The notes under the pieces are model-generated. The model did not search any database and had not been told where the DNA came from. It saw nothing but the letters and a program-made list of their open reading frames with translations. A DNA stretch of 64,000 bases from Haloarchaeobius salinus (GTDB taxonomy: Archaea; Halobacteriota; Halobacteria; Halobacteriales; Natrialbaceae), in NCBI RefSeq assembly GCF_024464185.1, contig NZ_JANHAU010000004.1, positions 62,001 through 126,000 on the forward strand, written 5' to 3'. How positions within the stretch are numbered: the first letter of the stretch is position 1; the number at the start of each line of letters is the position of its first letter. A program made the translations under genes and the position numbers. Positions 8,167 through 31,239 of the stretch are shown here, piece by piece.

Positions 8167-8949
8167 TCAGAGCAGGTCCGGCACGGCCGCCAGCGAGTCG
8201 ACGACGTGGTCCGGCTCCACGTCGCTGCGGGCGAGTGCAGCCCGGTCGGTGACGCCCGAGAGCACGAGCACGGTGGTCATCCCGGCGTCCGCGCCGAAGG
8301 CGATGTCCGTGTCGGGGCGGTCGCCGACGACCAGACACCGTTCGGCTGGGACGCCGAGCCGGTCGAGGGCGGCACGGCGGGTCGCCGGATGGGGCTTTCC
8401 GAGCACGGCCTCGGGCTCGCGCTCGCCGACGTCCGCCACCGCGTTGACGATGGCCCCCGACCCCGGGACGTCGCGCTCGGCGGCGGGCACGACCCGGTCC
8501 GGGTCGGTGCCGACGAGTGGGACGTCGCGGTCTTCGAGCGCCCAGAACGCGTCCCGCAGGTCGTCGTAGTGGAACTCGCGGTCCACCGAGGCGACGACCA
8601 CGTCGGCCGCGTCGGGGTCGTCTGTCAGCCGGAGGTCCCGCGCTCGCAACTGCTCCCTGAGGCCGTCCTCGCCGACGACGAACAGGGCCGCGTCGCCGTG
8701 CCGTTCGGAGAGGTAGCCCGCGGTCACCTCGCCCGACGTGAGCACCTGTCCGGCGGTCGCGTCGACGCCAGCGGCGACGAGTCTGTCGGCGTAGCTCGCC
8801 GGCGACCGGGTCGGGTTGTTCGTGACGAACAGCGTGGCGAGCCCGGCGTCCCGGAGCGACCGGATCGCCGCTGGCGCGCCCGGAACCGGCCGCTCGCCAC
8901 GGAGGACAGTCCCATCGACGTCGAGGACGACGCCGTCGAAGCGGGTCAT
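8167..8949 (-). CDS. HAD-superfamily phosphatase, NagD/4-nitrophenylphosphatase type
   Basis: 260 residues. HAD motif I is DVDGTVLRG at the N-terminus (nucleophile Asp10, acid/base Asp12). Motif II is FVTNN, the conserved GKPHP provides the motif III lysine, and GDRPDTDIAFGADAG is motif IV. The cap fits subclass IIA, as in NagD and phosphoglycolate phosphatases. The gene lies immediately upstream of form III RuBisCO on the same strand. A role in removing 2-phosphoglycolate made by the RuBisCO oxygenase reaction is attractive but is inference from position only. Confidence 0.88.
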   Translation of the reverse strand: MTRFDGVVLDVDGTVLRGERPVPGAPAAIRSLRDAGLATLFVTNNPTRSPASYADRLVAAGVDATAGQVLTSGEVTAGYLSERHGDAALFVVGEDGLREQLRARDLRLTDDPDAADVVVASVDREFHYDDLRDAFWALEDRDVPLVGTDPDRVVPAAERDVPGSGAIVNAVADVGEREPEAVLGKPHPATRRAALDRLGVPAERCLVVGDRPDTDIAFGADAGMTTVLVLSGVTDRAALARSDVEPDHVVDSLAAVPDLL

Positions 8950-18525: not shown

Positions 18526-20688
18526 ATGGCACATAAGTTCACTCACACGAAGTTCCTGATGATACTAGTGCCGACATTCGTCGCCGTCGAGAGCATGACG
18601 GCCACCCACGTCGCGTTCGTCGTGCTGCTGTTCGGTGCAGCGATGCTGTCGGCCGGACTCGGCGTGTACGCGCTGTACGTGGCCCGAAGCCAGCCGACCC
18701 ATCGCCGACTGCTCTCGCTGTTCGCCATGCTGATGTTCGGTGCCGCGCTCTGGTCGGCGGGCGACGGTACCCAGCTGCTCGTCGTCGACGAGGAGAGCCA
18801 GATCGCCATCGAGACGGCGATCAACCTCGTCACGGTCGTGCCACCCCTCGCGTGGCTGCTGTTCGCGATGAGCTACGGCGGACGGGAGCAGTGGCTCTCC
18901 CGACGAACGTACGTCCTGCTCGCCGTGGAGCCCGTCCTGTTCGCCGTCCTGCTCGCGACGCATTCGTCCCACGACCTCCTCTGGAGCGCCGCGGCCCTGA
19001 CAGAGACGCAGTCGGGGAGCCTTCCCCTGCTCCAGCGCGAGCTCGGACCGGCGTACATCGCTCACGCGCTCTACTCGTACGCTCTCGTCATCTTCGGGGC
19101 GTACGTGCTGCTGTTCCGGGCGCGCACGCAGGACACGACGTTCCGCGGGCAGGCCACCCTCCTGACCGTCGGCGCGCTCGTCCCGATGCTCTCGAACGTG
19201 GGACACCTCTCCGGGGCCGGTACTGCTCTCAACCTCACCGGAGCCGCGTTCACCGTCTCCGGAGTCGCCTTCTGGCTGGCCATCACCCGCTACCGGCTGC
19301 TCGACGTGGTCCCGGTCGCTCGCGAGTCCGTCATCGAGGAGATGCGCGACGGCTACGTCGTCCTCGACGAGTCGGACCGGGTCGTCGACGCCAACCCCGC
19401 CGCGGAACAGCTCCTCTCGACGTCGCTGTCCGTCGGCCAGCCCGTCGCCGACGTGCTCCCGGCCGATGCCGACGTGCTCGACGACGACGATGCCGACGAG
19501 CGCACCGAGTTCGTCGTGGGTGAGGGGGCCGACCGACGGTTCGTCGACGCCACCATCTCCCCCGTCGGCCGGGACGACGCGAGTCGGCTGCTCGTCCTGC
19601 GCGACGTGACCGAGACGCGGGAGACCGAACAGCGGTTCCAGGCGCTCATCGAGAACGCCTCCGACATCGTCGCCGTCCTCGACGACGACGGTACCGTCCA
19701 GTACCAGAGCCCGTCGACGAAGCAGGTGCTCGGCTACGACCCCGAGGAGATGGTCGGCGGGAACGCCTTCGACTACATCCACCCGGCGGATCAGGCCGAC
19801 CTCGCCACGGAGTTCGCGAAGGGCATCGAGGAGGATCGTCCCATCGAGCGCGTGGAGTACCGCGTCCAGCACGCCGACGGCTCCTGGCGCGTCCACGAGT
19901 CCGTCGCCCGGAACCTCCTCGACGACCCGGCCGTCGAGGGGATCGTCATCAACACCCGCGACGTGACCGAGCACCGGGCGCGCGAGCAGGAGCTGGCGGC
20001 GACGAACGAGCGGCTCGACCGGTTCGCGAGCGTCGTCAGCCACGACCTCCGCAACCCGCTGAACGTCGCCGAGGGCTACGTCGAGCTCCTGGAGGACCAC
20101 GTCGAGGACGAGACGGCCCTCCAGTACCTCAAGGAGGTCTCGACGAGCCACGACCGCATGGACCGCATCGTCGACGACGTGCTCGCACTCGCACGGCAGG
20201 GTGGCGAGATAACCGAGACGATGCCGATCGAACTCGAGTCGGCCGCCCGCGCCGCCTGGTCGGGTGTCGACACCGACGGTGGGACCCTCGACGTGGTCGA
20301 GTCCACGACGGTCGACGCCGACCGGGACCAGCTCGCACGACTGCTCGAGAACCTCTTCCGCAACGCTATCGAGCACGGAGCCACCGCCGGCCCATCCGCG
20401 TCCGAGAACGTCCCACGGGAGACGACAGATGGTGGTGTACACGGCGGTGAGGTCACCGTGACCGTCGGCACGCTCCCCGAGCGGGACGGCTTCTACGTCG
20501 CGGACGACGGTCCCGGCCTCCCGCCGGAGCTCAGGGAGCGCGTGTTCGAACCGGGCGTCACCTCACGCGAGGGCGGAACCGGCCTCGGGCTGGCCATCGT
20601 CGCCGATATCGCGGAGGCACACGGCTGGACCGTCGAACTCGGCGACACGGACGGCGGTGCTCGCTTCGAATTCGTCACCAAAAACTGA
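18526..20688 (+). CDS. Membrane sensor histidine kinase (7TM-PAS-PAS-HisKA-HATPase)
   Basis: 720 residues. About seven hydrophobic helices in the first ~260 residues match the histidine-kinase 7TM sensor type. A first PAS region (GYVVLDESDRVVDANPA) and a second (ASDIVAVLDDDGTVQYQSPS with PAC) follow. The phosphoacceptor His, near residue 506, is in VVSHDLRNPLN. The ATPase shows the N box NLFRNAIEH, G1 DDGPGLP and G2 GGTGLGLAI. No response regulator lies nearby. The ATG at 18526 may be too far upstream: TATA-like GATACTAG near 18560 would suit the in-frame ATG at 18595, which begins immediately before the first helix. Confidence 0.92.
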   Translation: MAHKFTHTKFLMILVPTFVAVESMTATHVAFVVLLFGAAMLSAGLGVYALYVARSQPTHRRLLSLFAMLMFGAALWSAGDGTQLLVVDEESQIAIETAINLVTVVPPLAWLLFAMSYGGREQWLSRRTYVLLAVEPVLFAVLLATHSSHDLLWSAAALTETQSGSLPLLQRELGPAYIAHALYSYALVIFGAYVLLFRARTQDTTFRGQATLLTVGALVPMLSNVGHLSGAGTALNLTGAAFTVSGVAFWLAITRYRLLDVVPVARESVIEEMRDGYVVLDESDRVVDANPAAEQLLSTSLSVGQPVADVLPADADVLDDDDADERTEFVVGEGADRRFVDATISPVGRDDASRLLVLRDVTETRETEQRFQALIENASDIVAVLDDDGTVQYQSPSTKQVLGYDPEEMVGGNAFDYIHPADQADLATEFAKGIEEDRPIERVEYRVQHADGSWRVHESVARNLLDDPAVEGIVINTRDVTEHRAREQELAATNERLDRFASVVSHDLRNPLNVAEGYVELLEDHVEDETALQYLKEVSTSHDRMDRIVDDVLALARQGGEITETMPIELESAARAAWSGVDTDGGTLDVVESTTVDADRDQLARLLENLFRNAIEHGATAGPSASENVPRETTDGGVHGGEVTVTVGTLPERDGFYVADDGPGLPPELRERVFEPGVTSREGGTGLGLAIVADIAEAHGWTVELGDTDGGARFEFVTKN

Positions 20689-20702: not shown

Positions 20703-22055
20703 TCAGGCCGACGGCTGGCCCGAATCGTCGGTTCCGTCGCCGGAGGTGTCATCGCTGCTGTCGTCGGTTCCGGTGTCGGAGGTGTCATCGCTGCTGTCGT
20801 CGGTTCCGGTGTCGGAGGTGTCATCGCTGCTGTCGTCGGTTCCGGTGTCGGAGGTGTCATCGCTGCTGTCGTCGGAGCCGTCGTCGCTGCTGTCGTCGGT
20901 TCCAGTATCGGAGCCGTTGTCAGTCGCGGTGTCGGTCCCGTCGTCAGTTCCCGCGTCAGTCCCGTCGTCAGCACCCTCATCCTCGGTACCGTCGCCGTCA
21001 CCGACGGAGACGTTGTCGCCGGAGCCGCTGTCGGGGTCGTCGGGCTCCTGGACGGTGCTGTTGTCGCTGCCCTCGCTGACCGGGGTGTCACCCTCGTCGA
21101 CACTGCCATTCCCGTCGGCGCTGTCGTCGACACCGACGTTCTCGTCACCCGAATCACCGACGCTCGAATTGTCGACGGTAGTGGTCCCGTCCTCGACGCT
21201 GACGTTGCCGTCACCCGAGCCGCCGACGCCCGGGTTGTCGGCGGTGCTGTTGTCATCACCGACACTGACGTTCCCGTCGCCGGAATTGTCGACGGTACTG
21301 TTGCCGTCGTCGACGCTGACGTTCCCATCACCGGAATCGTCGACGGTGCTGTTGCCGTCGTCGACGGTACTGTTGCCGTCGTCGACGCTGACGTTCCCGT
21401 CACCCGAGTCGCCGACGGTCGAGTTGTCGACGGTACTGTTGTCGTCATCGACGCTGACGTTCCAGTCACCCGAATCACCGACGGTCGAGTTGTCGACGGT
21501 GTTGTTGCCATCGTCGACGCTGACGTTCCCGTCGCCCGAATCGTCCACCGTCGAGTTGTCGACGGCGGGCGCGACCGACTCGAACCCGACAGAGTGGGTC
21601 GAGAACGACGCCATGTGGAACGTCGCCCACGAGTAGCCGTCGACGTCGAGACGGTCGTACGGGGACGACTGTCCGTCGACGAGCAGCTGGAACGCCGTGA
21701 TGTCCATCCCGACGGCTGCGAGCGCGTCGAGCCGGACCATCACGGTCGCGGGCGAGTCCTCGACCCGGGAGACGGTGAACTCGACCACGCCGCCGGTGTC
21801 GGTGACGATGGAGACGACGGCCACGTCGTCGCCGTCGTGGAGGACCCGGATCGAGTCCTCCCAGGCGGGGTCGTCCGAGCCGGTGACCTGGACGGTTCCG
21901 GTATCGGGGGCCGGGGCTCCGGAGCCACCGACGGAGACGGCGAGGTTCTCGCGGTCCGCGAACAGCCCCGTGGTGACGCTGCCGCCGGCGACGGCGGCGA
22001 GCACGACGAGCACCGTGGCGAGCACGGCCAGCGCCGAGCTGTGTCTACTGCTCAT
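20703..22055 (-). CDS. Secreted Asp-rich glycoprotein with SipW-type N-terminus
   Basis: 450 residues. One N-terminal hydrophobic segment ends GGSVTTGLFADRENLAVSV, matching the T-x-A-x-F-x-D-x-E pattern of SipW-dependent (TasA/camelysin-like) signal peptides. A beta-rich region follows to about residue 165. The rest is repeats: first NSTV/GNVSV units with about twenty N-x-S/T glycosylation sites, then Asp/Ser/Thr units. It has no Tat motif and no C-terminal anchor. The ATG lies inside the end of the signal-peptidase gene (11-base overlap), so it is the last gene of that operon. The 36-base repeats at 20745-20875 are prone to slippage. Confidence 0.8.
   Translation of the reverse strand: MSSRHSSALAVLATVLVVLAAVAGGSVTTGLFADRENLAVSVGGSGAPAPDTGTVQVTGSDDPAWEDSIRVLHDGDDVAVVSIVTDTGGVVEFTVSRVEDSPATVMVRLDALAAVGMDITAFQLLVDGQSSPYDRLDVDGYSWATFHMASFSTHSVGFESVAPAVDNSTVDDSGDGNVSVDDGNNTVDNSTVGDSGDWNVSVDDDNSTVDNSTVGDSGDGNVSVDDGNSTVDDGNSTVDDSGDGNVSVDDGNSTVDNSGDGNVSVGDDNSTADNPGVGGSGDGNVSVEDGTTTVDNSSVGDSGDENVGVDDSADGNGSVDEGDTPVSEGSDNSTVQEPDDPDSGSGDNVSVGDGDGTEDEGADDGTDAGTDDGTDTATDNGSDTGTDDSSDDGSDDSSDDTSDTGTDDSSDDTSDTGTDDSSDDTSDTGTDDSSDDTSGDGTDDSGQPSA
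20745..20875. repeat. Perfect 36-bp tandem repeat, about 3.6 copies
   Basis: Units starting GGTGTCATCG begin at 20745, 20781, 20817 and 20853. The first three are identical over 36 bases and the fourth is partial. Each encodes a 12-residue Asp/Ser/Thr unit near the C-terminus of the secreted glycoprotein. The identity suggests recent amplification or homogenisation. Confidence 0.9.
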
Positions 22056-23256
22056 CGGACTCACCTCCGTCGGGCCGCGCGTCGCGAGCCGGGAACGTGT
22101 ACTCCAGCCCCTCGGCGTCGAACGCGTCGCCGAAGAGCGCGGCCCACGCAGCCTCCTCCGTGTCGACGGCGTCGTCGGTGTCGGCGGCTCCGTCCGTCGT
22201 GGGCTCCTCGTCGGCAGCGATGACCGCGGTCTCGACGTCGCCGTCGGTCGGCGCGTCGCAGACGTACAGCATCGTGCCGTCCGAGTAGCTGAGCCGGTCA
22301 GCCGCTTCGTCGTGGACGATCCAGCGCCCGGCCGCGGCGGCCATGGCGCGGAGCTCGTCCACGCTGGCGACGGTGACCGACGGCAGCGAGCGGGTCGCCT
22401 CGTCGAGCGAGCCCCGGAGCACGCCGCCCCCGGTGGCGGGCGTGTCGGCTGTCGGGCTGACGAACAGCCGCATACCGAGGAGCACCGCGAAGGCGACGGC
22501 GAACGCCGCGAACGCGGAGACGCTCAGCTGGAGCAACCGGAAGTAGGTGACGGACCCGTCGTAGACGAGGTAGGCCACCACGCCGGAGTAGACGGCTGCG
22601 ACGCCGGCGACCGCCATCGTCGCGGTCAGGTCCTGGACGCCGATGCTCCAGCCGTCGGTTTCGTCGTCGTCGACGACGGCCGCCACGGTTCCCACGCCGT
22701 CGGTCGCCGACCCGTCCCCGGTCCCGTCGGACTCGTCCTCGTTCTCTTCGCGGGCGCGCTTGACGAGGGCCCACAGTTCGGTGAGGACGAGCAGCGCGAT
22801 GGGTGCCGCGACGAGCAGCGCGAAGCCGGTCGTCGTCCCGACGAACTCGACCACGTACCCGATGAGCGGGATGGTGAGCATCACGCGGCCGACCAGCCGG
22901 TCGGGCGTGACGGTGCTCGCGTCGGGGTCCTCGTTGTTGTCGCCCTGTGTGACGAACTCGGGTCCGGCGGCGGTCTGCTGGATGTCGATGACCCGGTGGG
23001 TCGTCGGGACGGAGCGGTCCGCCGTGACGTACGTGATGACGTCGCCGACGCGCACGTCGTCGCCGTCCACCTCCGCGACCACGACCGCGTCGCCGACGGA
23101 GATCGCGGGCTCCATGCTGCCGGAGACCACCACGAAGCTCGCGTCACCGCCCGCGACCTGCGGGACGGCGAAGACGACGAACGGGACGACCAGCGCCACC
23201 ACGAGGAGCAGCGCGACGGCCCGGAGCACACCCCCGCGGGTCAGCTCGGGCGTCAT
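22045..23256 (-). CDS. Type I signal peptidase (SipW/Sec11-like) with large C-terminal extension
   Basis: 403 residues. An N-terminal helix is followed by the peptidase core: catalytic Ser in VVSGSMEPAI and His in PTTHRVIDI in place of the bacterial lysine, with Asp in QGDNNEDPD, as in archaeal and ER enzymes. A second membrane helix follows. About 220 extra residues then hold two more helices and a soluble acidic domain, resembling the DUF5305-type tails of some haloarchaeal signal peptidases (unconfirmed). Its start overlaps the upstream subunit gene by four bases and its end overlaps the glycoprotein gene, so it is probably dedicated to this operon's SipW-type substrates. Confidence 0.88.
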   Translation of the reverse strand: MTPELTRGGVLRAVALLLVVALVVPFVVFAVPQVAGGDASFVVVSGSMEPAISVGDAVVVAEVDGDDVRVGDVITYVTADRSVPTTHRVIDIQQTAAGPEFVTQGDNNEDPDASTVTPDRLVGRVMLTIPLIGYVVEFVGTTTGFALLVAAPIALLVLTELWALVKRAREENEDESDGTGDGSATDGVGTVAAVVDDDETDGWSIGVQDLTATMAVAGVAAVYSGVVAYLVYDGSVTYFRLLQLSVSAFAAFAVAFAVLLGMRLFVSPTADTPATGGGVLRGSLDEATRSLPSVTVASVDELRAMAAAAGRWIVHDEAADRLSYSDGTMLYVCDAPTDGDVETAVIAADEEPTTDGAADTDDAVDTEEAAWAALFGDAFDAEGLEYTFPARDARPDGGESDEQ

Positions 23257-24425
23257 CGGTTGCCACCTCCGTTGCCGGGGCCACCGGTAGCCGGCGGCCC
23301 ACCCGGACCCTCGTCGTCACCGTCCTTCTCGGGTGCACCGAGCACTCCCAGGGTCCCGTTGCCGTCGAGGTCACCGGGGCCGTAGTAGGCGACGCCACGG
23401 CCGCCCTTGATGGCGACCTGACAGAGCGTCGGGTCCGGCGTGTCGCCGTCTCCCTCGACGTGGAAGGCGAGCGCGACGACCTCGTCGCGGCCCCCGTCCT
23501 CGCCGGGCTTCGTCGCCGTCTCGGTCACGACGATGTCGTAGCCGGTGTCCTCGCAGTCGTCGTCGACCGGGAGGGTGTAGCGTCCGGGGACGACGTGGTT
23601 CTCCCCGAGCGTCGCGGGCGTGCCGATGCCGCAGTCCTCGGGGAGCGTGTCGTCGAGTTCGAGCTTCCCGAGGAGGACGCAGTCACAGCCGGGCGCACCG
23701 TCGTCGCAGACGTACACCTCGACGTAGCTGACGCCGTGTCTGTCCGGGCCGCAGTAGCAGTCGACCGGGACGACAGCCACGAACGGGCCGTCGTCGGTCG
23801 GGTCCGCGTGCCGGCACGCGACGGCCGCGAACTCGAAGCCGAGGCCGACGGTCTCCTCCCCGACGTAGTCGTCGGCGAGCTCGTAGTCGAGCCGCAGGTG
23901 GAGCGGCCCGTCCTCGCCGGCGTTCAGGCAGCCGGGAACGGTCGCGTTCGGGTCCTGGGACGGGTCCAGCGGCAGGCCGGTCTGGTACGTACGCGCCACG
24001 TCACAGAGCGTCCCCTCGAACAGGGGGTCGCTCGTGTACGCGCCGGTCCCGTCGACGTACCGGAGGCTGACGGTGAGCGCGCTCGCGAGTCGTCCGGTCG
24101 TCGACGGACAGAACGTCCGCAGCCAGGTGTAGGCAGGGTTGTTGACGCCGTCGTCGGACTCGGGCAGGTCCACGGTGAACAGGACGAACCCCCGTCTGCC
24201 GGGCGAGAGCGTCCCGAGGTCGATGGACACCTGTCCGTCGCTCGCGCCCGTGTCGCCGTCGTGCTCCCACCCGACCAGCAGGTCGAGCAGGCCGGCCCGC
24301 AGCGAGTTCCCGGTGAACCGCTCCAGGTCGGCCAGCGCGCCGTAGGTGCTCGCCGTCGAGATGGCACCTGCGCCGCCGATGACGGAGGCCCCGACGAGGA
24401 TCTCCCGGCGGGTGAGGCCGCTCAT
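23253..24425 (-). CDS. Tat-exported SipW-dependent (TasA-like) surface protein
   Basis: 390 residues. The N-terminus has a Tat motif (TRREILVG), a hydrophobic stretch and then GALADLERFTGNSLRAGLLDL, the SipW-type cleavage region leading into the first strand of a camelysin-like fold. The core ends with LGFEFAAVACRH near residue 195, as in the paralogues. A second, cysteine-rich region follows (CYCGPD, CDCVLLG) and ends in a Gly/Pro-rich tail. It overlaps both neighbours by ATGA. By analogy with bacterial TasA and archaeal bundling-pilus proteins it may be a fibre or matrix subunit; that is inference. Confidence 0.82.
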   Translation of the reverse strand: MSGLTRREILVGASVIGGAGAISTASTYGALADLERFTGNSLRAGLLDLLVGWEHDGDTGASDGQVSIDLGTLSPGRRGFVLFTVDLPESDDGVNNPAYTWLRTFCPSTTGRLASALTVSLRYVDGTGAYTSDPLFEGTLCDVARTYQTGLPLDPSQDPNATVPGCLNAGEDGPLHLRLDYELADDYVGEETVGLGFEFAAVACRHADPTDDGPFVAVVPVDCYCGPDRHGVSYVEVYVCDDGAPGCDCVLLGKLELDDTLPEDCGIGTPATLGENHVVPGRYTLPVDDDCEDTGYDIVVTETATKPGEDGGRDEVVALAFHVEGDGDTPDPTLCQVAIKGGRGVAYYGPGDLDGNGTLGVLGAPEKDGDDEGPGGPPATGGPGNGGGNR

Positions 24426-25162
24426 TCCGCACCTCCACAGCCGACGGCCTCGCAGACCAGGTCGAACGTGACGCTGTCGGTCTGGGTGTCGGCGCTGTCC
24501 GGGTCGAACCGCCAGGCCAGCCCGAGACAGCGGTTCTCGCCGCCGTCGAGACAGCCGAGGTCGATCCCCTCGGGGCCGTACTCGTCGCTCACACTCTGGA
24601 GCGAGCCCGTCGTGAGGGTCGTGTCGCCGAGCCCGCGACGGCCGTCGCAGCCGCCGAACAGGCTGGAGTCGCGCCAGATCTCGACGAGCAGGGCGTCCTG
24701 TAGCTCGCCGACGTCGGTCGTCGTGTCTCCCGCGACGGCCTCCGGCTCGACGATTCCGTTCTCGTCGGTCGCGGAGAGCTGCGGGAGAAGGCGGACCTGT
24801 GCCGGCGTGTCCACCGCCTGGAAGCCGACGACGAGGGTTCCCTCGTCACCCGGCATCAGGTTGTCGAGCGTCACGACGGGTCCGGAGACGCCGTCGACGT
24901 ACGCCGGCGATTCGGCCGGGTCGAGGACGGCGGTCCCGTTGGTCACCGTCGAGCCGTTCTGTCCCGCGAGGACGCCACCGTTGTACGTCTCGAACCAGGC
25001 GATCCGGACCAGCGAGTTCGGCGCGGCGTACGTGTAGTGCGTGTACGCCGGGGCATCGCCGAGATCGCCCGTCACTCCCGAGAGTGTGGCGATCCCGACG
25101 GCACCGGCACCGATGCCGGCGAGCAGGTCGCGTCGATTCAGTTGTTTCTGTGTAGATGTCAC
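24422..25162 (-). CDS. Tat-exported SipW-dependent (TasA-like) surface protein, first gene of the peptidase operon
   Basis: 246 residues from a GTG at 25162, preceded by GGGGGGAGACAC, the same G-run leader seen before the three genes further upstream. The Tat motif is NRRDLLAGIG. After the hydrophobic region comes a beta-rich domain with DNLMPGDEGTLVVGF, and the C-terminal QTDSVTFDLVCEA matches the last strand of the paralogues. The usual F-x-D-x-E segment is poorly conserved (VTGDLGDAPAYTHY). The stop overlaps the start of the next gene, which begins the four-gene run of overlapping frames down to 20703. Confidence 0.78.
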   Translation of the reverse strand: MTSTQKQLNRRDLLAGIGAGAVGIATLSGVTGDLGDAPAYTHYTYAAPNSLVRIAWFETYNGGVLAGQNGSTVTNGTAVLDPAESPAYVDGVSGPVVTLDNLMPGDEGTLVVGFQAVDTPAQVRLLPQLSATDENGIVEPEAVAGDTTTDVGELQDALLVEIWRDSSLFGGCDGRRGLGDTTLTTGSLQSVSDEYGPEGIDLGCLDGGENRCLGLAWRFDPDSADTQTDSVTFDLVCEAVGCGGAE

Positions 25163-25607
25163 GTGTCTCCCCCCTGCCGCCCCCCAGGCGGCGTGTCGGA
25201 CTCGACGACGTGACCGGGCGACCGACCACTGTCGGTCCACCGGGTCCGTTCGTCGTCGTTTCTCGCCTGTCGGGAGGACAGCGACGGGCTTAGGTATGGG
25301 TCGCCCGCCACCGGGATACGGACCACTTCCGACCGCTCGTGGAGCGGTCGGCTGACCCTGCCGGTCCGGTACGGCGACCCTGGAACCGTTCGCCCGAAGC
25401 GACGTCGGCGACCTCGGTGGGTCCGCGTCGTCGGTCGTCGGTCGAGAGTTGTCCCCGTCCGCGGGGAGGACCCGGCGACGGAGTCGAACCGTCGTGTGAC
25501 CGCTCCGGGTCGATGTGTTCGATGACGGCGGCCGCCCCCGTCATCGGGCTACGGGGTCATGGTAGCGGGATGGCCGGCTCGGTCGAGCCGGACGTGGCCG
25601 GTTCAGC
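25163..25607. other. 445-bp intergenic region holding T-arm-like element A
   Basis: No convincing gene is seen. The region contains the T-arm-like element at 25469-25511 and a following CCCC/GGGG hairpin around 25452-25466. It also holds a GCCGCC/GGCGGC hairpin just before the GTG at 25162. A possible minus-strand TATA region lies near 25290-25300 (CCATACCTAAGC). It separates the vWA-subunit genes from the signal-peptidase operon. Confidence 0.6.
25469..25511 (-). promoter_or_regulatory. tRNA T-arm-like RNA element, copy A
   Basis: Read on the minus strand: a 7-bp outer stem GACCCGG/CCGGGTC encloses 11 unpaired bases, then a 5-bp stem GACGG/CCGTC closing a 7-base loop TTCGACT, then one spacer base. 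The inner hairpin has the exact geometry and consensus of a tRNA T-arm. It is about 300 bases upstream of the gene starting at 25162. Confidence 0.6.
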
Positions 25608-27131
25608 TCAGGCGGCGGAACCGAACGGGTTCGCGTTCTCGTCGTTGTGCCGGCACTGCACGGCGGCGAAGTCCAGGTCGAACTTCACGGAGTCGGTCTG
25701 GATCTCGTTGCCCACCTCGCGCGGGATGCACCACTCCATCGCGACGCAGTGGGTGCCCGGCAGGAAGCAGTACTCGTCGTCGTCGCTGGACTGGGCCAGC
25801 AGCGGGAGCGCCTCCAGCTTGAGGCCGCTCGACGCGGCGTCGTTGAACTCCGCCAGGGTGCCCTCGAAGAACACCACCTCGCCCACCACGACGGACTCGA
25901 TGATGGACTCGTAGATGACCGGAAGGACGACCGCGAGGTCGTCGGCCGAGGTGTTGTAGTAGTCGGTCCCGTCGCCGTCGCCGGGGTTGTTGACGGCCGT
26001 CCCGGCCATGTCCCGGAGCAGCTGGGGATCGCCGTCGCCGGGGTCGTTGATGTCGATGACGATGATGCGGGTGCCGCCGGCCTTCGCGTCGTTGGCGGCC
26101 TGCAGCTCGTCGACGTTGCTCTCGAACTGCTCGCCGTCGGTGAGCAGGATCATGATCTTCTGTGCGCCCGAGCGAGCGTTCGCGCTCAGGTAGTTGTCGC
26201 CCTCCTGCACCGCGAGCCCGAGGGCCGTGCCGGTCACGCCCTCCGGGACCGCGTCGACGCTGGAGATGGCGTTCTGTACGTCGGTCTCGTCGTCGGACGG
26301 GCCGAACGCGATACCGGGAGCCTGGTCGTCGCCGATGTAGTCCTCGTTGCCGAACGTGAACACGCCGATCTCGGTGTCGGCGGTCTCGTCGAAGACGATG
26401 GTGGCGAAGTCACCCATCGCGTCCTTCGCGACGGCGAGCTTGGTGGTCGTGCCACCCTGGCCGTCGGAGATATCGCCGCCGTACTGGTCGTACTCCATCG
26501 AGCCGGAGATGTCCTGCACGACGAGGATGTCGCTCGTGCCGACGCCCTCCGTGATGGTGTTCGAACAGTCCTCGTCGTACCAGAGGGTCACGTCGATGTT
26601 CTCCGCGAGTTCGCCCACGTCGGGCGTGTCGTCGACCTCGCCCTCGGGCTCGGTGAGTCCGTTGTCGAGGTCGTCGTAGACGCTCCCGCGCATCCAGAGG
26701 TAGGCGGGGTTGTCACAGATGTGGAGGCTGACGGTGACCTCACCGCAGTCGCCGGGCTTGACGTCGTCGAGCTCGAAGACGGGGATCGCCTCGCCGTCGA
26801 TGAAGCCCTCGGTGTCGCAGGCGAAGCCGAGGTCCGCGCGCTCCTCCCAGGTCATCGGACCCTCGGCCATGTCGATGAGCCCCTGGTCGATGAGCTGCTG
26901 CTCGGTCGGTGCCTGGCCGATCATCTCGACGCCGTTCGGGCCGTCGTAGGTGGCCTTGTAGTCGAGCTGGAGATCGAGCCGGCCGGCGGCGAGGCTGTTG
27001 CCGACGAAGCCCTCGCGGTCGTTGAACAGTGCGGTCGTGCCGAGGCCCGCGCCCGCGGCAGCGATGCCGGCCGTTCCGAGACCGGCGAGGACCGTCCGCC
27101 GGGTGATGTCGTATGTCTGTTTGTCGCTCAT
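25608..27131 (-). CDS. TasA-like surface protein with inserted von Willebrand A domain (paralogue 1)
   Basis: 507 residues from ATG 27131. The Tat motif is TRRTVLAG at 10-17; GTTALFNDREGFVGNSLAAG (31-50) is a clear SipW-type region. The fibre-like fold runs to VTLWYDEDCSN (~181-191), is interrupted by a vWA domain (about 198-412), and resumes at VVFFEGTLAEF (419-429), ending QTDSVKFDLDFAAVQCRH. The MIDAS metal site is complete: DISGS (207-211), Thr in TGTALG (~302), and TDG (331-333). Conserved cysteines could form disulfides. A metal-dependent adhesive head on a surface fibre is the simplest reading, but it is inferred. A GGGGGGAG leader precedes the start. Confidence 0.88.
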   Translation of the reverse strand: MSDKQTYDITRRTVLAGLGTAGIAAAGAGLGTTALFNDREGFVGNSLAAGRLDLQLDYKATYDGPNGVEMIGQAPTEQQLIDQGLIDMAEGPMTWEERADLGFACDTEGFIDGEAIPVFELDDVKPGDCGEVTVSLHICDNPAYLWMRGSVYDDLDNGLTEPEGEVDDTPDVGELAENIDVTLWYDEDCSNTITEGVGTSDILVVQDISGSMEYDQYGGDISDGQGGTTTKLAVAKDAMGDFATIVFDETADTEIGVFTFGNEDYIGDDQAPGIAFGPSDDETDVQNAISSVDAVPEGVTGTALGLAVQEGDNYLSANARSGAQKIMILLTDGEQFESNVDELQAANDAKAGGTRIIVIDINDPGDGDPQLLRDMAGTAVNNPGDGDGTDYYNTSADDLAVVLPVIYESIIESVVVGEVVFFEGTLAEFNDAASSGLKLEALPLLAQSSDDDEYCFLPGTHCVAMEWCIPREVGNEIQTDSVKFDLDFAAVQCRHNDENANPFGSAA

Positions 27132-27160
27132 TGTATGTGTACTCCCCCCTTTCGGGGAAC

Positions 27161-27212
27161 GACCCACCGACGGAGTCGAACCGTCGTCGTCGGTCCCTGC
27201 GACCGATGGGCC
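27161..27212 (-). promoter_or_regulatory. tRNA T-arm-like RNA element, copy B
   Basis: The inner hairpin GACGG-TTCGACT-CCGTC is identical to the other copies. The outer stem differs (GGCCCAT pairing with GTGGGTC, including G-U pairs) but still forms seven pairs. The 20-base interior contains its own small hairpin, CGGTC/GACCG. It lies 30-81 bases upstream of the start of vWA paralogue 1. Between them is a CCCC-GAAA-GGGG hairpin that overlaps the G-run before the ATG. Confidence 0.6.
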
Positions 27213-27262
27213 ACCGTCGCGCCCCCAGGCACGACGGACGAGGCAGTCAGTCTTCGGTCGGT

Positions 27263-28741
27263 TCAGTTCGCAGCCGTGGTCGTGGGCGGCGTGCTGTTGC
27301 CACTGTCGGTGCTGTTGTTCTCACCACCGGGGTTGTCGTTGTGGCGCGACTGTTCGGCGTCGACCACGAGGTCGAACATGATGGAGTCGGTCTGGACCTC
27401 GTTGCCGACCTCCGCGGGCAGGCACCATTCGAAGCCGATGCACTGCGTGGTCACGGCCGCGTACGGGTCGCGCTCCTCGGAGGTGCGGTCGCCGTCGAGC
27501 GGGACGCCCTCGGCGAGTGCAGCGAACACCTCGGCCATCGTGCCCTCGAGGATCTTCACCTCGCCCTCGAGGACGATCTGTGCGATCTCCTCGTAGATGG
27601 TGTCGAGGTCGGCGGCGTCCGGGGCGATGAACGCGTCCCCGGGGTTGCTCGCGATGTTGTTCGCGAGGTACGTCTGGTCGGCACCGGCACCGAGCGCGAT
27701 GGTGAAGATGCGGATACCGTTGTTCTTCGCGTCGGTCGCGGCCTGCGCCGCGGCCGACGGGTCGTTGACGACGCCGTCGGTCAGGACGATCATGACCTTC
27801 GACGCCGAGGGCGTCGCGTTCGTGCCACCCATGAGCTCGTCGTCGGCGATCGAGATGCCGGCGGTCATGTTCGTTGCGCCACCCGCGGTGTAGTTGTTGA
27901 TGGCGTCCTTGACGGCCTGGTAGTTGGTCGTGAGCTCCTGGTCGAGGCTCCCACTGCCGTTGAACGAGACCGCGGCAACTTCGTCGGGCTGTGCGAGGTT
28001 GTCGACGAAGTCGGTGGCCGCGTTCCGGAGTGCGGCGATCTTCGAACCGCTCATCGAGCCGGAGGTGTCGCTGACGAGTGCGACCTCGAGCTCCTGGCCC
28101 TCGCCCTCGCCGCCGGGCTCGTAGACGTTGTCGCAGTCCTCGTCGTACCAGACGCATACCTCGATGAGGTCGGCGAGCTCGCCCATGCCGTCCGTGTCCT
28201 CGCCCTCGTCGGCGAGCTCGGGCTCGGTCTGGCCGTTCTCGTTGTTGGCGTAGACACTCCCGGAGAGGTCGAGCCACGCCGGGTTGTCACAGATGTGGAA
28301 GCTGATGGTGACCTCGCCGCAGTCACCGGGCTTGACGTCCGAGAGGTTGAAGACGGGCAGCTCGTCGCCGTTGACGAGGAACTCGTCGGCCTCGTCCGAA
28401 CAGAACTGGAACTGCTCGCCCATGACGAGGTCCTCCCACGCCTGCATGTCGGCCGGGCTGGGTGCCTGGTCGAGCAGGTACCGCCCGTCGCCGAGGTCCT
28501 CGGCGTCCGGGTAGCCCATGGCGACGACATCGTCGAGGCGGCCCGCACCGCCGAGGTAGGTCGCCTTGTAGTCGAGCTTCAGGTCGAGCGAACCAGCCGT
28601 GAGGCTGTTGCCGATGAACCCCTCGCGGTCGTTGAACAGTGCGGTGGTGCCGAGGCCCGCGCCCGCGGCCGCCACGCCGACGGTCCCCAGTCCGGCGAGG
28701 ACTGTCCGTCGGGAGATGGTGTGTTGTCTGTCGTTGGTCAT
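27263..28741 (-). CDS. TasA-like surface protein with inserted von Willebrand A domain (paralogue 2)
   Basis: 492 residues from ATG 28741. The N-terminus is nearly the same as paralogue 1: SRRTVLAGLGT, then GTTALFNDREGFIGNSLTAG. The fibre-like fold is interrupted after VCVWYDEDCDN (~195-205) by a vWA domain (about 216-390) and resumes at EVKILEGTMAEVF, ending QTDSIMFDLVVDAEQSRH. MIDAS residues are present: DTSGS (225-229), Thr in TNMTAG, and TDG (321-323). The vWA sequence is only distantly like that of paralogue 1 although the flanks are close. It ends in a short Asn/Ser/Thr tail with N-glycosylation sites. Confidence 0.88.
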   Translation of the reverse strand: MTNDRQHTISRRTVLAGLGTVGVAAAGAGLGTTALFNDREGFIGNSLTAGSLDLKLDYKATYLGGAGRLDDVVAMGYPDAEDLGDGRYLLDQAPSPADMQAWEDLVMGEQFQFCSDEADEFLVNGDELPVFNLSDVKPGDCGEVTISFHICDNPAWLDLSGSVYANNENGQTEPELADEGEDTDGMGELADLIEVCVWYDEDCDNVYEPGGEGEGQELEVALVSDTSGSMSGSKIAALRNAATDFVDNLAQPDEVAAVSFNGSGSLDQELTTNYQAVKDAINNYTAGGATNMTAGISIADDELMGGTNATPSASKVMIVLTDGVVNDPSAAAQAATDAKNNGIRIFTIALGAGADQTYLANNIASNPGDAFIAPDAADLDTIYEEIAQIVLEGEVKILEGTMAEVFAALAEGVPLDGDRTSEERDPYAAVTTQCIGFEWCLPAEVGNEVQTDSIMFDLVVDAEQSRHNDNPGGENNSTDSGNSTPPTTTAAN

Positions 28742-28767
28742 TGCTGTTTACTCCCCCCTGAGGGGAC

Positions 28768-28811
28768 GACCCGGCGACGGAGTCGAACCGTCGGCCGAAC
28801 CACTCCGGGTC
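28768..28811 (-). promoter_or_regulatory. tRNA T-arm-like RNA element, copy C
   Basis: Outer stem GACCCGG/CCGGGTC, 12 interior bases, inner hairpin GACGG-TTCGACT-CCGTC, one spacer base. It is located 27-70 bases upstream of the start of vWA paralogue 2. A CCCC/GGGG hairpin lies between the element and the ATG and again includes the G-run preceding the start. Confidence 0.62.
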
Positions 28812-28836
28812 AGTTGTTTCGGGCCGGAGCCCGGGT

Positions 28837-30168
28837 TTACTCGAAGGCGAGGTCGAGCGCGACGCCCTCCTCGGCGGAGCTGTCGTAGTCGCCCTGCACC
28901 GTTCCAGTCAGGTCGCCCGTCACGGTGAACGGCCCGGAGACCTGTGCTGCGCTCGTGTTGACGACGAGGTGCTGGATGTCGCGGTCAGTGCCGTCGTCGT
29001 CGTTCGACGCGGTCATCGTGTTGGGACCGACCAGGCCGATCGAGTCGCCGCCGACGTTGAGTGCGAGGTTGTCGACCGTCACGGTTGCCTCGTCGGCCTT
29101 GCCGACGAACGCGAAGCGTCCAGCGGGTGCCGGAATCGAGTCGCTAACGGTCACGCCGTCGACCGAGAAGGCTGCGGAGCCCGCACCATCGTACTCGTAG
29201 GTGAACGGGACCGTCGCACCGGAGGTCCAGGTGTAGTCCGCCTCGTCGGCGTTACCGGGTGCGGTACCGACCGCGAGTTCCCAGGTGTTCACGCCGCCGT
29301 AGCGGGCCCGTGCGAACGAGGACTTCTGGAACGGTTCGAAGCCCTCGCCCTGGCTGGTCGTCACGACGGGGTTGTGCCGCGACTGCTCGGCGTCGAAGGT
29401 CAGGTCGAACTTCACGGAGTCGGTCTGGACCTCGTTGCCCACGTCGATGGGCAGCTCCCAGTAGAAGCCGATGCAGTAGGTGCTCGCGCCGGGGACCGGG
29501 TCGAACTCCGGGGTGCTGGCGTCGCCGTCGAGGCCGATGCCGGCCTCGAGCGCGGCGAACGCGTCGGTCATGCTCCCCTCGAAGATGACGACCTCGTCCT
29601 CGTCGAGGACGTTGTTGCAGTCCGGGTCGTACCACATGGTGACCTGGATGGCGTCGGCGAGCTCGCCCACGCCGTCGGTGTCCTCGCCCTCGTCGGCGAG
29701 TTCGGGCTCCGTCTGGCCGTTCTCTGCGTTCTCGACCAGCTCACCGGACATCGTCACCCACGCGGGGTTGTCGCAGATGTGGAGGCTGACGGTGACTTCG
29801 CCGGAGTCGCCTGGCTTGACGTCGTCGAGGTCGAAGACGGGGATCTCGTCGCCGTTGATGAGCATCGCCTTGCCGTCGTCCGAACAGTAGTCGATCTCGC
29901 TGCCCTCGCCGAACTGGTCCTCCCACGCCTGTTCCTCGTCCGGGGTGGGGCGCTGTCCGAGGATCTCGACGCCGTTCGGGCCGTCGTAGGTCGCCTTGTA
30001 GTCGAGCAGGAGGTCCAGCGAACCCGCGGTGAGGAGGTTCTCGCTGAACCCCTCGCGGTCGTTGAACAGTGCGGTGGTGCCGAGGCCAGCCCCCGCGGCT
30101 GCGACGCCGACGGTGCCGAGTCCCGCGAGTACGGTACGCCGAGTGAGGTGTTGTCTTTCGTCTGTCAT
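28837..30168 (-). CDS. TasA-like surface protein without vWA, with a C-terminal beta domain (paralogue 3)
   Basis: 443 residues from ATG 30168. The Tat motif TRRTVLAGLGT and SipW region GTTALFNDREGFSENLLTAG match the other paralogues. Here VTMWYDPDCNN (~176-186) runs straight into VVIFEGSMTDAF, so the fibre-like fold is uninterrupted and shows where the vWA domains were inserted in the others. The fold ends QTDSVKFDLTFDAEQSRH at ~265. A further ~175-residue beta-rich domain follows (VNTWELAVGT, TWTSGATVPFTYEYDG), vaguely like bacterial choice-of-anchor domains. This is probably the first gene of the three-subunit set. Confidence 0.85.
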   Translation of the reverse strand: MTDERQHLTRRTVLAGLGTVGVAAAGAGLGTTALFNDREGFSENLLTAGSLDLLLDYKATYDGPNGVEILGQRPTPDEEQAWEDQFGEGSEIDYCSDDGKAMLINGDEIPVFDLDDVKPGDSGEVTVSLHICDNPAWVTMSGELVENAENGQTEPELADEGEDTDGVGELADAIQVTMWYDPDCNNVLDEDEVVIFEGSMTDAFAALEAGIGLDGDASTPEFDPVPGASTYCIGFYWELPIDVGNEVQTDSVKFDLTFDAEQSRHNPVVTTSQGEGFEPFQKSSFARARYGGVNTWELAVGTAPGNADEADYTWTSGATVPFTYEYDGAGSAAFSVDGVTVSDSIPAPAGRFAFVGKADEATVTVDNLALNVGGDSIGLVGPNTMTASNDDDGTDRDIQHLVVNTSAAQVSGPFTVTGDLTGTVQGDYDSSAEEGVALDLAFE

Positions 30169-30193
30169 TGATGTGTTTCCCCCCCTTGGGGAG

Positions 30194-30234
30194 GACCTGG
30201 TGACGGAGTCGAACCGTCTGTCCCACTCCAGGTC
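30194..30234 (-). promoter_or_regulatory. tRNA T-arm-like RNA element, copy D
   Basis: Outer stem GACCTGG/CCAGGTC, which differs from copies A and C by one compensated base pair. The interior is nine bases, and the inner hairpin GACGG-TTCGACT-CCGTC is unchanged. The spacer base is A instead of G. It lies 26-66 bases upstream of the start of paralogue 3, with a CCCC/GGGG hairpin over the G-run next to the ATG. Confidence 0.62.
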
Positions 30235-30354
30235 GGAGTGCCCGTCTTCGTATGCAGCGCACACGGGTCGGGGGTGCGACGGCGTGTCGCGCCCCGAAGC
30301 CCCCGGTGTGTCTGCTCCCCCTTCGACGGGCTATCCTTCCCTCCGCCACGTATC

Positions 30355-30366: not shown

Positions 30367-30714
30367 TCCTGCTTTCGTCCTCTCAGTGTGCCGTTGCGTT
30401 CCGGTCCGGTCCTGCTACCACCGAAATTGCCGCGACCGGTATGGTGACCCGGCCCGGGTCGTCGGACCCGTTAGCAGGCCGCAGTCTCTCGGTTTCGCCG
30501 CGAGAACAGCTCCAGAACGACACGGCGACCGTACTGGCAGTATGAGTACCGGAATGCGACGCCTGCCGGTTCGAACGCCCCGAACTATCCGAGACCCGAT
30601 AGCTTCAATCCGGCCTTGCGTACTCCGACCCACCGGTGTCCGCTCTCCATACCTATCCCCCCTGCGCGCGATACGTACTTCCGGAGACGCGAATCGCCGC
30701 GTCGTGGGGGGACA

Positions 30715-31239
30715 ATGCTAACCAAGACACACACAGTACCGGATTCGGACGTGTTCGCCATTCTCAGCAACCAACGCCGCCGTCACACGCTGGAGTACCT
30801 GCGTCGCCACGACGACGGCGTCGCGCTCCGGGACCTCGCGGAGGCCATCGCGACGGTCGAATCGGGCGAGTCGCCTGCACCGCGGGACGTGCGGCACACG
30901 GTGTACGTCTCGCTCCACCAGACGCACCTCCCGATGCTCGACGCGGCCGGCGTGCTGGCCTACGACGCGGACCGCAAGCTCGTCGAACTCCTCGACTCCG
31001 CCCGCGACGTGGAGCGCTACATGACCATGACGACCGCCTTCGGCGTCAGCTGGGCCGAGTACTACCGGGCCCTCGGCGTCGTCGGACTGTTCCTCGTCGT
31101 CGCCGCCCTCGCGAACCTCCCGGTCATCTCCGCGGTCCCGCCGCTGGCCTTGGCCTCCGCCTTCCTCGCGACGTTCGCCGTCTCCTCGGCCTACCAGCTC
31201 TGGGGACAGCGTCGCGGCCTGCTGCGTGCGCTGTTCTGA
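30715..31239 (+). CDS. DUF7344-type winged-helix protein with C-terminal membrane helices
   Basis: 174 residues. The N-terminal ~100 residues are a winged-helix domain opening DVFAILSNQRRRHTLEYL and containing YVSLHQTHLPMLDAAGVLAYD, the pattern of haloarchaeal DUF7344 proteins. Two hydrophobic helices (GLFLVVAALANLP and LALASAFLATFAV) end the protein, so it may be a membrane-tethered regulator. It is divergent from the subunit genes and is the nearest candidate regulator of them. The ATG at 30715 follows GGGGGGACA; longer frames upstream are not favoured. Confidence 0.82.
   Translation: MLTKTHTVPDSDVFAILSNQRRRHTLEYLRRHDDGVALRDLAEAIATVESGESPAPRDVRHTVYVSLHQTHLPMLDAAGVLAYDADRKLVELLDSARDVERYMTMTTAFGVSWAEYYRALGVVGLFLVVAALANLPVISAVPPLALASAFLATFAVSSAYQLWGQRRGLLRALF

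Follow-up and report, generated by a model that had tools for sequence, protein, structure and literature searches.

A stretch of 64,000 nucleotides from contig 4 of the 3.85 Mb genome of Haloarchaeobius salinus (NCBI RefSeq assembly GCF_024464185.1, contig NZ_JANHAU010000004.1, positions 62,001 to 126,000; hereafter the window, with positions numbered from its first letter) carries, on the minus strand between 30234 and 20703, a locus that, taking all its parts jointly, is probably a haloarchaeal TasA/camelysin-type surface-fibre operon. Its subunits would join by donor strands after processing by a signal peptidase encoded among them (S), and its message would be cut at RNA elements that resemble part of a tRNA. 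The TasA-like fold, the twin-arginine translocation (Tat) signals, the coupling between peptidase and signals and the structure of the RNA are well supported. In the direction of the minus strand, from 30234 to 20703, the operon reads RNA element, W, RNA element, V2, RNA element, V1, RNA element, C, B, S and A. Because C and B overlap by 4 bases, B and S by 4 bases and S and A by 20 bases, an initial annotation of this DNA was right to describe the four last genes, from 25162 to 20703, as one run of overlapping frames. The parts of the operon, followed by its two neighbours, are as follows.

30169..30234, minus strand: tRNA-like leader element of W
28837..30168, minus strand: W; Tat and SipW-type signal, predicted TasA-type domain at about residues 50-270, C-terminal choice-of-anchor W domain (NF041928, 61.5 bits)
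28742..28811, minus strand: tRNA-like leader element of V2
27263..28741, minus strand: V2; Tat and SipW-type signal, VWA domain (8e-23) inserted in the predicted TasA-type domain, residues of the metal-ion-dependent adhesion site (MIDAS) present
27132..27211, minus strand: tRNA-like leader element of V1; part of it called tRNA-Leu by ARAGORN; outside the model-building set
25608..27131, minus strand: V1; Tat and SipW-type signal, VWA domain (4.5e-12) inserted in the predicted TasA-type domain
25446..25511, minus strand: free-standing tRNA-like element between V1 and C; outside the model-building set
24422..25162, minus strand: C; Tat signal and predicted TasA-type domain, without the SipW F-x-D motif
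23253..24425, minus strand: B; cysteine-rich (12 Cys), Tat and SipW-type signal, predicted TasA-type domain
22045..23256, minus strand: S; SipW-like signal peptidase I of the endoplasmic reticulum (ER)/archaeal type, with S47, H87 and D106
20703..22064, minus strand: A; possible TapA analogue with a hydrophobic N-terminal segment that has no twin arginine, a SipW-like motif seen by eye and 20 sequons in a long acidic tail
30616..31239, plus strand: D; divergent DUF7344 protein, a conserved neighbour and putative regulator; start codon uncertain
18526-20688: histidine kinase, converging on the operon from the other side

Subunits, export signals and the signal peptidase

W, V2, V1, C and B share one common predicted jelly-roll domain, TasA-like by the predicted fold of W and by the order of its motifs. 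In a template-free model of W, this domain spans residues 50-270, where the ten-residue mean of the predicted local distance difference test (pLDDT) lay mostly between 64 and 91, with two blocks at 52 and 61; residues 1-49 were unpaired and had a pLDDT under 50. Foldseek matched the model best to 8aur_A, the TasA fibre solved by cryo-electron microscopy (E 2.1e-5, probability 1.00), and returned a single match under 1e-3 besides TasA, at probability 0.44. With VIA-align, three TasA entries led, namely 5of1 (Z 9.0 over 151 residues), 5of2 (Z 9.0 over 145) and 8aur (Z 8.5 over 150), and the next was an unrelated chain at Z 6.2. When a W-type profile was compared with the PDB, TasA 5of1 ranked third (E 0.49), and its KPGD and N-x-x-Q-G...F-E-A-x-Q blocks lined up with those of the profile. 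The fold match was computed for the W model, and the other subunits are tied to W through profile comparison: signal-trimmed W-, V-, B- and C-type alignments matched one another with 98 to 100% probability in six of six pairs, and the peptidase alignment, serving as a control, gave 0.1%. None of the matches listed for the W model was named AbpA or bundling pili, a non-appearance that proves nothing. The initial annotation had named monomeric wall proteins as the kind of homologue that would speak against a fibre; the nearest solved fold is instead TasA, described in the cited passages of PMC9674648 as forming donor-strand fibres.

The model of V2 contained a confident VWA domain (residues 218-392) lying between two strands of the surrounding sheet domain. 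Its Foldseek matches were mostly VWA proteins, with Mfa5, a type V pilus tip protein, in 25th place. In an alignment of 21 V-type proteins, from which one row (L062) was left out, 12 had all five metal-site residues, V1 and V2 of the window among them. The mean cysteine content was 3.33% in B-type proteins and 1.25 to 1.57% in the other subunits, against 0.96% (median 0.64%) in 341 other called genes; these values are compatible with disulfides, and no more than that.

The SipW-type signal model TIGR04088 (cut-off 19 bits) scored V1 at 20.4, W at 19.9 and V2 at 15.9 bits in hmmscan, and in a six-frame search of the genome V2 reached 20.7 bits, so that W, V1 and V2 were all over the cut-off. 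B and A had no match at E 0.1 in hmmscan; B shows a variant of the SipW-type segment through profile alignment, and A has the SipW-like motif TTGLFADREN, found by eye. The count of five proteins with the SipW signature or its remnants, made from the DNA letters at the outset, is therefore fair. The accompanying count of four that combine it with a Tat-type twin arginine (RR) was borne out for W, V2, V1 and B, but the Tat-type proteins total five, C being one as well though without a SipW motif; the twin arginine precedes a mildly hydrophobic region. Across the genome, no more than eight places were over the TIGR04088 cut-off, so chance does not account for the signals: three lie in the window locus and five in a paralogous locus on contig 2. 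Sixteen W-type proteins share invariant A33, F35, D37, F41, N44, A48 and G49, and 21 V-type proteins keep A34, F36, D38, N45, A49 and G50. The invariant Phe (F35 in W, F36 in V2) sits where TasA has its P2' Phe; according to the cited passages of PMC10269814, cleavage of TasA puts Phe at P2', which hinders an ordinary signal peptidase I (E. coli LepB) and is handled by SipW. Judged by alignment, W would be cleaved between A33 and L34. The segment after the predicted site is much more conserved than the domain (0.63 versus 0.29 in W-type and 0.66 versus 0.36 in V-type proteins).

We also counted twin arginines in 201 SipW-type open reading frames (ORFs) from 80 peptidase-anchored loci, found with a profile that omits the RR itself. 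A Tat-type RR was present in 170 of 177 haloarchaeal ORFs but in none of the 24 from other loci (those of methanogens, Bathyarchaeota, Thermoplasmata, candidate-phylum bacteria and the like). Of the seven haloarchaeal ORFs without it, at least two do have an RR, preceded by a different residue. Haloarchaeal W and V proteins were the source of the profile, so A-type proteins, which have no RR, fall largely outside the 177 matches. The combination of Tat and SipW, suggested beforehand to be a distinct haloarchaeal version, thus holds across the class.

S passes the signal peptidase I model TIGR02228 (112.5 bits) and scores 93.3 bits, below the cut-off of 190, against the NCBI equivalog model for Bacillus SipW; it is a relative and not that equivalog itself. 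The Ser/His/Asp arrangement read from the letters alone is present: in 24 homologues, S47 and H87 are invariant and D106 is kept in at least 90%. The source genome has four signal peptidase I-like places, three of which pass TIGR02228, the third of them in a DUF1102-type locus described below. Among 61 related genomes, 20 have the peptidase and 23 have TIGR04088 signals, and all 20 peptidase genomes have signals, giving 20/20 with the peptidase versus 3/41 without it (Fisher P 2.8e-13, genome kinship ignored). The three signal-only genomes are 53 to 86% complete. In the 50 genomes that are at least 90% complete, signals occur in 20/20 with the peptidase versus 0/30 without it (Fisher P 2.1e-14, kinship ignored). 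Most signals in the 61 genomes (78 of 90) lie within 12 kb of a peptidase match; of the remaining 12, one genome accounts for 3 at up to 18 kb, two incomplete genomes for 5 that sit on short contigs and a third incomplete genome for 1, and 3 stand alone in Haloarchaeobius genomes.

Seen from the peptidase, a TIGR04088 signal lies within 12 kb at 27 of the 28 loci in the 20 related genomes, and the exceptional one (G001, L050) has W/V-like proteins by blastp. In a broader sample, the best 80 of 517 relatives in a genome contig collection, a SipW-type ORF was found within 10 kb on either side at 74 loci; ORFs in the fetched loci were called by a simple composition rule that misses some genes, such as the peptidases of L062 and L065. 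A peptidase occurring widely without these subunits, the outcome that had been set down in advance as telling against a dedicated enzyme, is thus not what these loci display. At one locus (L070, 7829-8958), the peptidase gene lies in two overlapping frames, through a frameshift or a sequencing error.

In 23 of 26 loci inspected by eye, the gene after the peptidase encodes an A-type protein: its N-terminus is hydrophobic but has no RR, a SipW-like motif is present, and the tail is in most cases acidic and rich in sequons. Because the N-terminal strand of TapA suffices to promote TasA assembly, according to the cited passages of PMC10151520, A may be a TapA analogue, in role and not in family. 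In L055 (11710-13278), the peptidase itself continues into an A-type C-terminal part that has a SipW-like motif.

The paralogous locus on contig 2 encodes a SipW-like peptidase (39% identity to S), B-like and C-like proteins, three large Tat/SipW proteins, at least one of them with a VWA-type motif found by eye, a W-like protein and divergent DUF7344-type genes.

A tRNA-like RNA element

The RNA element has, in order, a 7-nt strand and a linker, then a stem of 5 or 6 bp that carries a TTCGAxT loop, and then the second 7-nt strand; a C-run/G-run hairpin stands between it and the start codon. It looks like the acceptor stem plus T-arm of a tRNA, or half a tRNA, with a 7-bp acceptor-like stem and a T-arm and one base pair more between the stems than tRNA has. 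The window operon contains four such elements, which the initial annotation had missed, most with a hairpin at the ribosome-binding site (RBS) behind them. A T-arm was found in 103 of 259 distinct leaders of SipW-type genes, where shuffles gave an expectation of 0.45, and the C-run/G-run hairpin stands behind 87 of 98 elements. In a fixed-gap control on these 98 elements, unselected, acceptor partners were in excess at gaps of 7-15 (22 versus a shuffled mean of 1.5), 16-24 (6 versus 1.6) and 25-45 (14 versus 3.3), with no excess at 46-90 (6 versus 7.4).

Covariation was read from a building alignment of 30 elements that had been picked by eye from 73 for a good acceptor partner, some with the start moved by one base, so that pairing of the acceptor helix is favoured in its counts: both sides changed in 9 of 13 pairs and 94.9% of cells pair. 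Sliding this alignment by 1 to 3 columns lowered the paired cells to 34-54%. Among 91 distinct matches, both-side changes occurred in 11 of 13 pairs, the counts of the model-fitted RNA alignment (A8) being biased by that fit, and a shuffle control on both-sided pair changes gave 0 of 500.

We searched the whole genome with a model of the element and found seven places with E below 1e-5, all in the two TasA-type loci and five of them outside the building set. An eighth, weaker match (E 0.001) lies in a third locus, of DUF1102 type (L176, contig C1:1091001-1103000). There the element stands between a Tat-signal protein and a 555-residue CARDB protein, followed by an S26 peptidase; residues 1-117 of the Tat-signal protein match PDB 9p0a, 'Pilin' (E 2.5e-14), a second Tat-signal protein is a DUF1102 protein, and a divergent DUF7344 gene is also present. 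A further match at C1:990207 (E 0.16, L177), with no pilin-type gene adjoining it among the ORFs listed, was rejected as noise. We found the element at comparable DUF1102-like loci in two other Haloarchaeobius genomes and one further genome, the family being assigned by eye from N-termini; in the further genome, no peptidase was among the genes listed in the stretch read. In the 61 genomes there were 45 matches at E 0.001 or better, confined to 14 genomes that all have SipW-type signals; 40 of the matches were assigned to SipW loci and 5 to DUF1102-type loci. The RNA element thus accompanies Tat-exported pilin-like loci of two kinds, TasA-type and DUF1102-type.

In the 80 peptidase loci, 92 of 93 matches lie on the strand of the peptidase (17 of the 93 are rows of the building alignment and 6 more are duplicate records of those places), and 80 of these 92 sense-strand matches directly precede the start of an RR protein, with the start codon at the end of the model (median 0 nt). 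In loci that have two or more RR genes as well as an element, to which the count was confined, the element stands at 6 of 34 first genes versus 67 of 107 later genes (Fisher P 4e-6); Haloarchaeobius is an exception in that W, a first gene, has one. The element at 25446-25511 lies 284 nt upstream of C and has no start codon immediately after it, and similar copies without an RR gene directly behind occur in L078, L079, L096 and others.

No Rfam family reached its gathering score on the elements. The best two Rfam matches on the minus strand of 25400-30300, at two of the four elements, were to tRNA-Sec, at 24.7 and 17.6 bits against a gathering score of 47. ARAGORN called a tRNA-Leu at 27160-27235 (minus strand), which overlaps the V1 element and is not a tRNA gene by the Rfam gathering score; in L048, its tRNA-Gly at 8411-8497 overlaps an element matched at 8455-8519. 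A sigma-70 promoter scan gave nothing of use. Judged against Rfam only, the RNA element appears undescribed. Because it is structured, covaries strongly and marks such loci genome-wide, it can be used to find further ones.

Proposed working of the locus and its alternatives

Fibre formation, cleavage by S, adhesion and RNA processing are what we infer for this locus. Tat would export the jelly-roll already folded, with its N-terminus held in the membrane, and S would cut before the L-F-N-D-x-E segment. The N-terminal stretch so freed would be the donor strand that completes the next subunit, and cleavage would thus trigger polymerisation. V subunits would present a metal-binding VWA domain for adhesion, and A, which has neither a TasA-type domain nor a Tat signal, would start or anchor the fibre as TapA does. 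The RNA elements would be recognised like tRNA by RNase P and/or tRNase Z, and cutting at them would split the polycistronic message into cistrons headed by an RBS-holding hairpin and set the ratios of the subunits.

For the RNA, we propose only tentatively that this undescribed tRNA-mimicking element could be the processing and dosage signal of haloarchaeal surface-fibre operons of both the TasA and the DUF1102 type, cut by tRNA-maturing enzymes. The hairpin behind most elements and the start codon at the end of the model would also suit a translation switch, in which the element stays unprocessed and its tRNA-like fold, or a protein bound to it, toggles the hairpin that holds the G run of the RBS; this alternative, which concerns the RNA part only, is conceivable if somewhat doubtful. 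However, because the element is mostly missing at first genes and frequent at internal ones, and because the window copy before C has no start codon directly behind it, processing between cistrons fits better than a switch.

For the proteins, the subunits vary greatly in size and bear extra domains (VWA, choice-of-anchor W), their polymerisation is our own extrapolation, and self-complemented TasA monomers are also stable according to the cited passages of PMC9674648. The locus might then encode Tat-exported, peptidase-processed surface adhesins, monomeric or bound to the S-layer, with the TasA-like domain a mere module and no fibre at all. We consider this unlikely, in view of five TasA-type subunits within one operon, the high conservation of the post-cleavage segment and the recurrence of the same arrangement in the source genome and in other genera. 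A camelysin-like metalloprotease (Peptidase M73) system instead of fibres is highly improbable and was set aside, as the weak Pfam M73 matches at the N-termini (E 0.013 to 0.045), to which one contig 2 paralogue adds a match that passes the cut-off, span only about the first 50 profile positions, which is the signal region.

Several observations weigh against the fibre operon that we favour or against its RNA part. Overall, the W model is of middling confidence (mean pLDDT 64.7), shallow input alone may explain the low confidence at its residues 1-49, and the structural models are of single chains (W and V2), with no subunit pair among them. Sequence alone gives a weak link to TasA, the chain scoring E 0.49 and its best stretch 8.2, and the top PDB match of the W-type profile is the pilin 9p0a, spanning the Tat signal only. 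The full MIDAS is limited to 12 of the 21 V-type proteins. Three Haloarchaeobius genomes (L072, L073 and L074) have an orphan W-like SipW-type gene far from any peptidase; in the source genome, no such counterpart was over the TIGR04088 cut-off outside its two loci. The T-arm is limited to 103 of 259 leaders, so many subunit genes are without the element, and a strict acceptor partner within 90 nt was found in 44 of 98 elements (shuffles: mean 13.7, maximum 23). The energies of single-sequence folds often do not stand out, and for W the minimum-energy fold is a different one.

Comparison with known systems

A literature search, which covered the proteins and not the RNA element, found no description of a haloarchaeal SipW/TasA system. 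We regard the fibre part as a haloarchaeal form of the already known TasA-type system, and the locus as a clear candidate for a surface fibre of haloarchaea distinct from type IV pili. On the RNA side, Hoelzle et al. reportedly described, in 2012, tRNA-like elements of Haloferax volcanii that are cleaved by tRNase Z or RNase P, likewise a tRNA-like fold in a haloarchaeal transcript; we know of no conserved family of those elements before pilin-type genes.

The DUF1102-type Tat pilin loci (PDB 9p0a) share with the window operon the Tat-type signal, an S26 signal peptidase, the divergent DUF7344 gene and the RNA element, but differ in subunit family, as 9p0a resembles the protein of the third locus and matches the TasA-type profile over the signal only. 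Archaeal bundling pili (AbpA of Pyrobaculum calidifontis), compared here by description, are archaeal TasA-type donor-strand fibres, the kind proposed for the window operon, and the cited passages on them mention neither Tat signals nor this operon layout (PMC9674648, PMC10151520).

The tapA-sipW-tasA operon of Bacillus subtilis has the same TasA-type jelly-roll, a SipW-type signal with a P2' Phe, a dedicated ER-type peptidase within the operon and an extra protein gene overlapping the peptidase gene; A is likened to TapA by role only, and kinship is not claimed. Unlike that operon, with its Sec signals, the haloarchaeal one has Tat-type signals, five subunit paralogues, VWA insertions, a Cys-rich subunit and tRNA-like RNA elements. 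How a subunit folded in advance keeps its groove from closing before the peptidase releases the donor strand is a question that the Tat route raises. Whereas the donor-strand fibres in the cited passages of those papers use subunits exported through Sec, an entire class of archaea seems here to have shifted the same fibre family to the folded-protein route.

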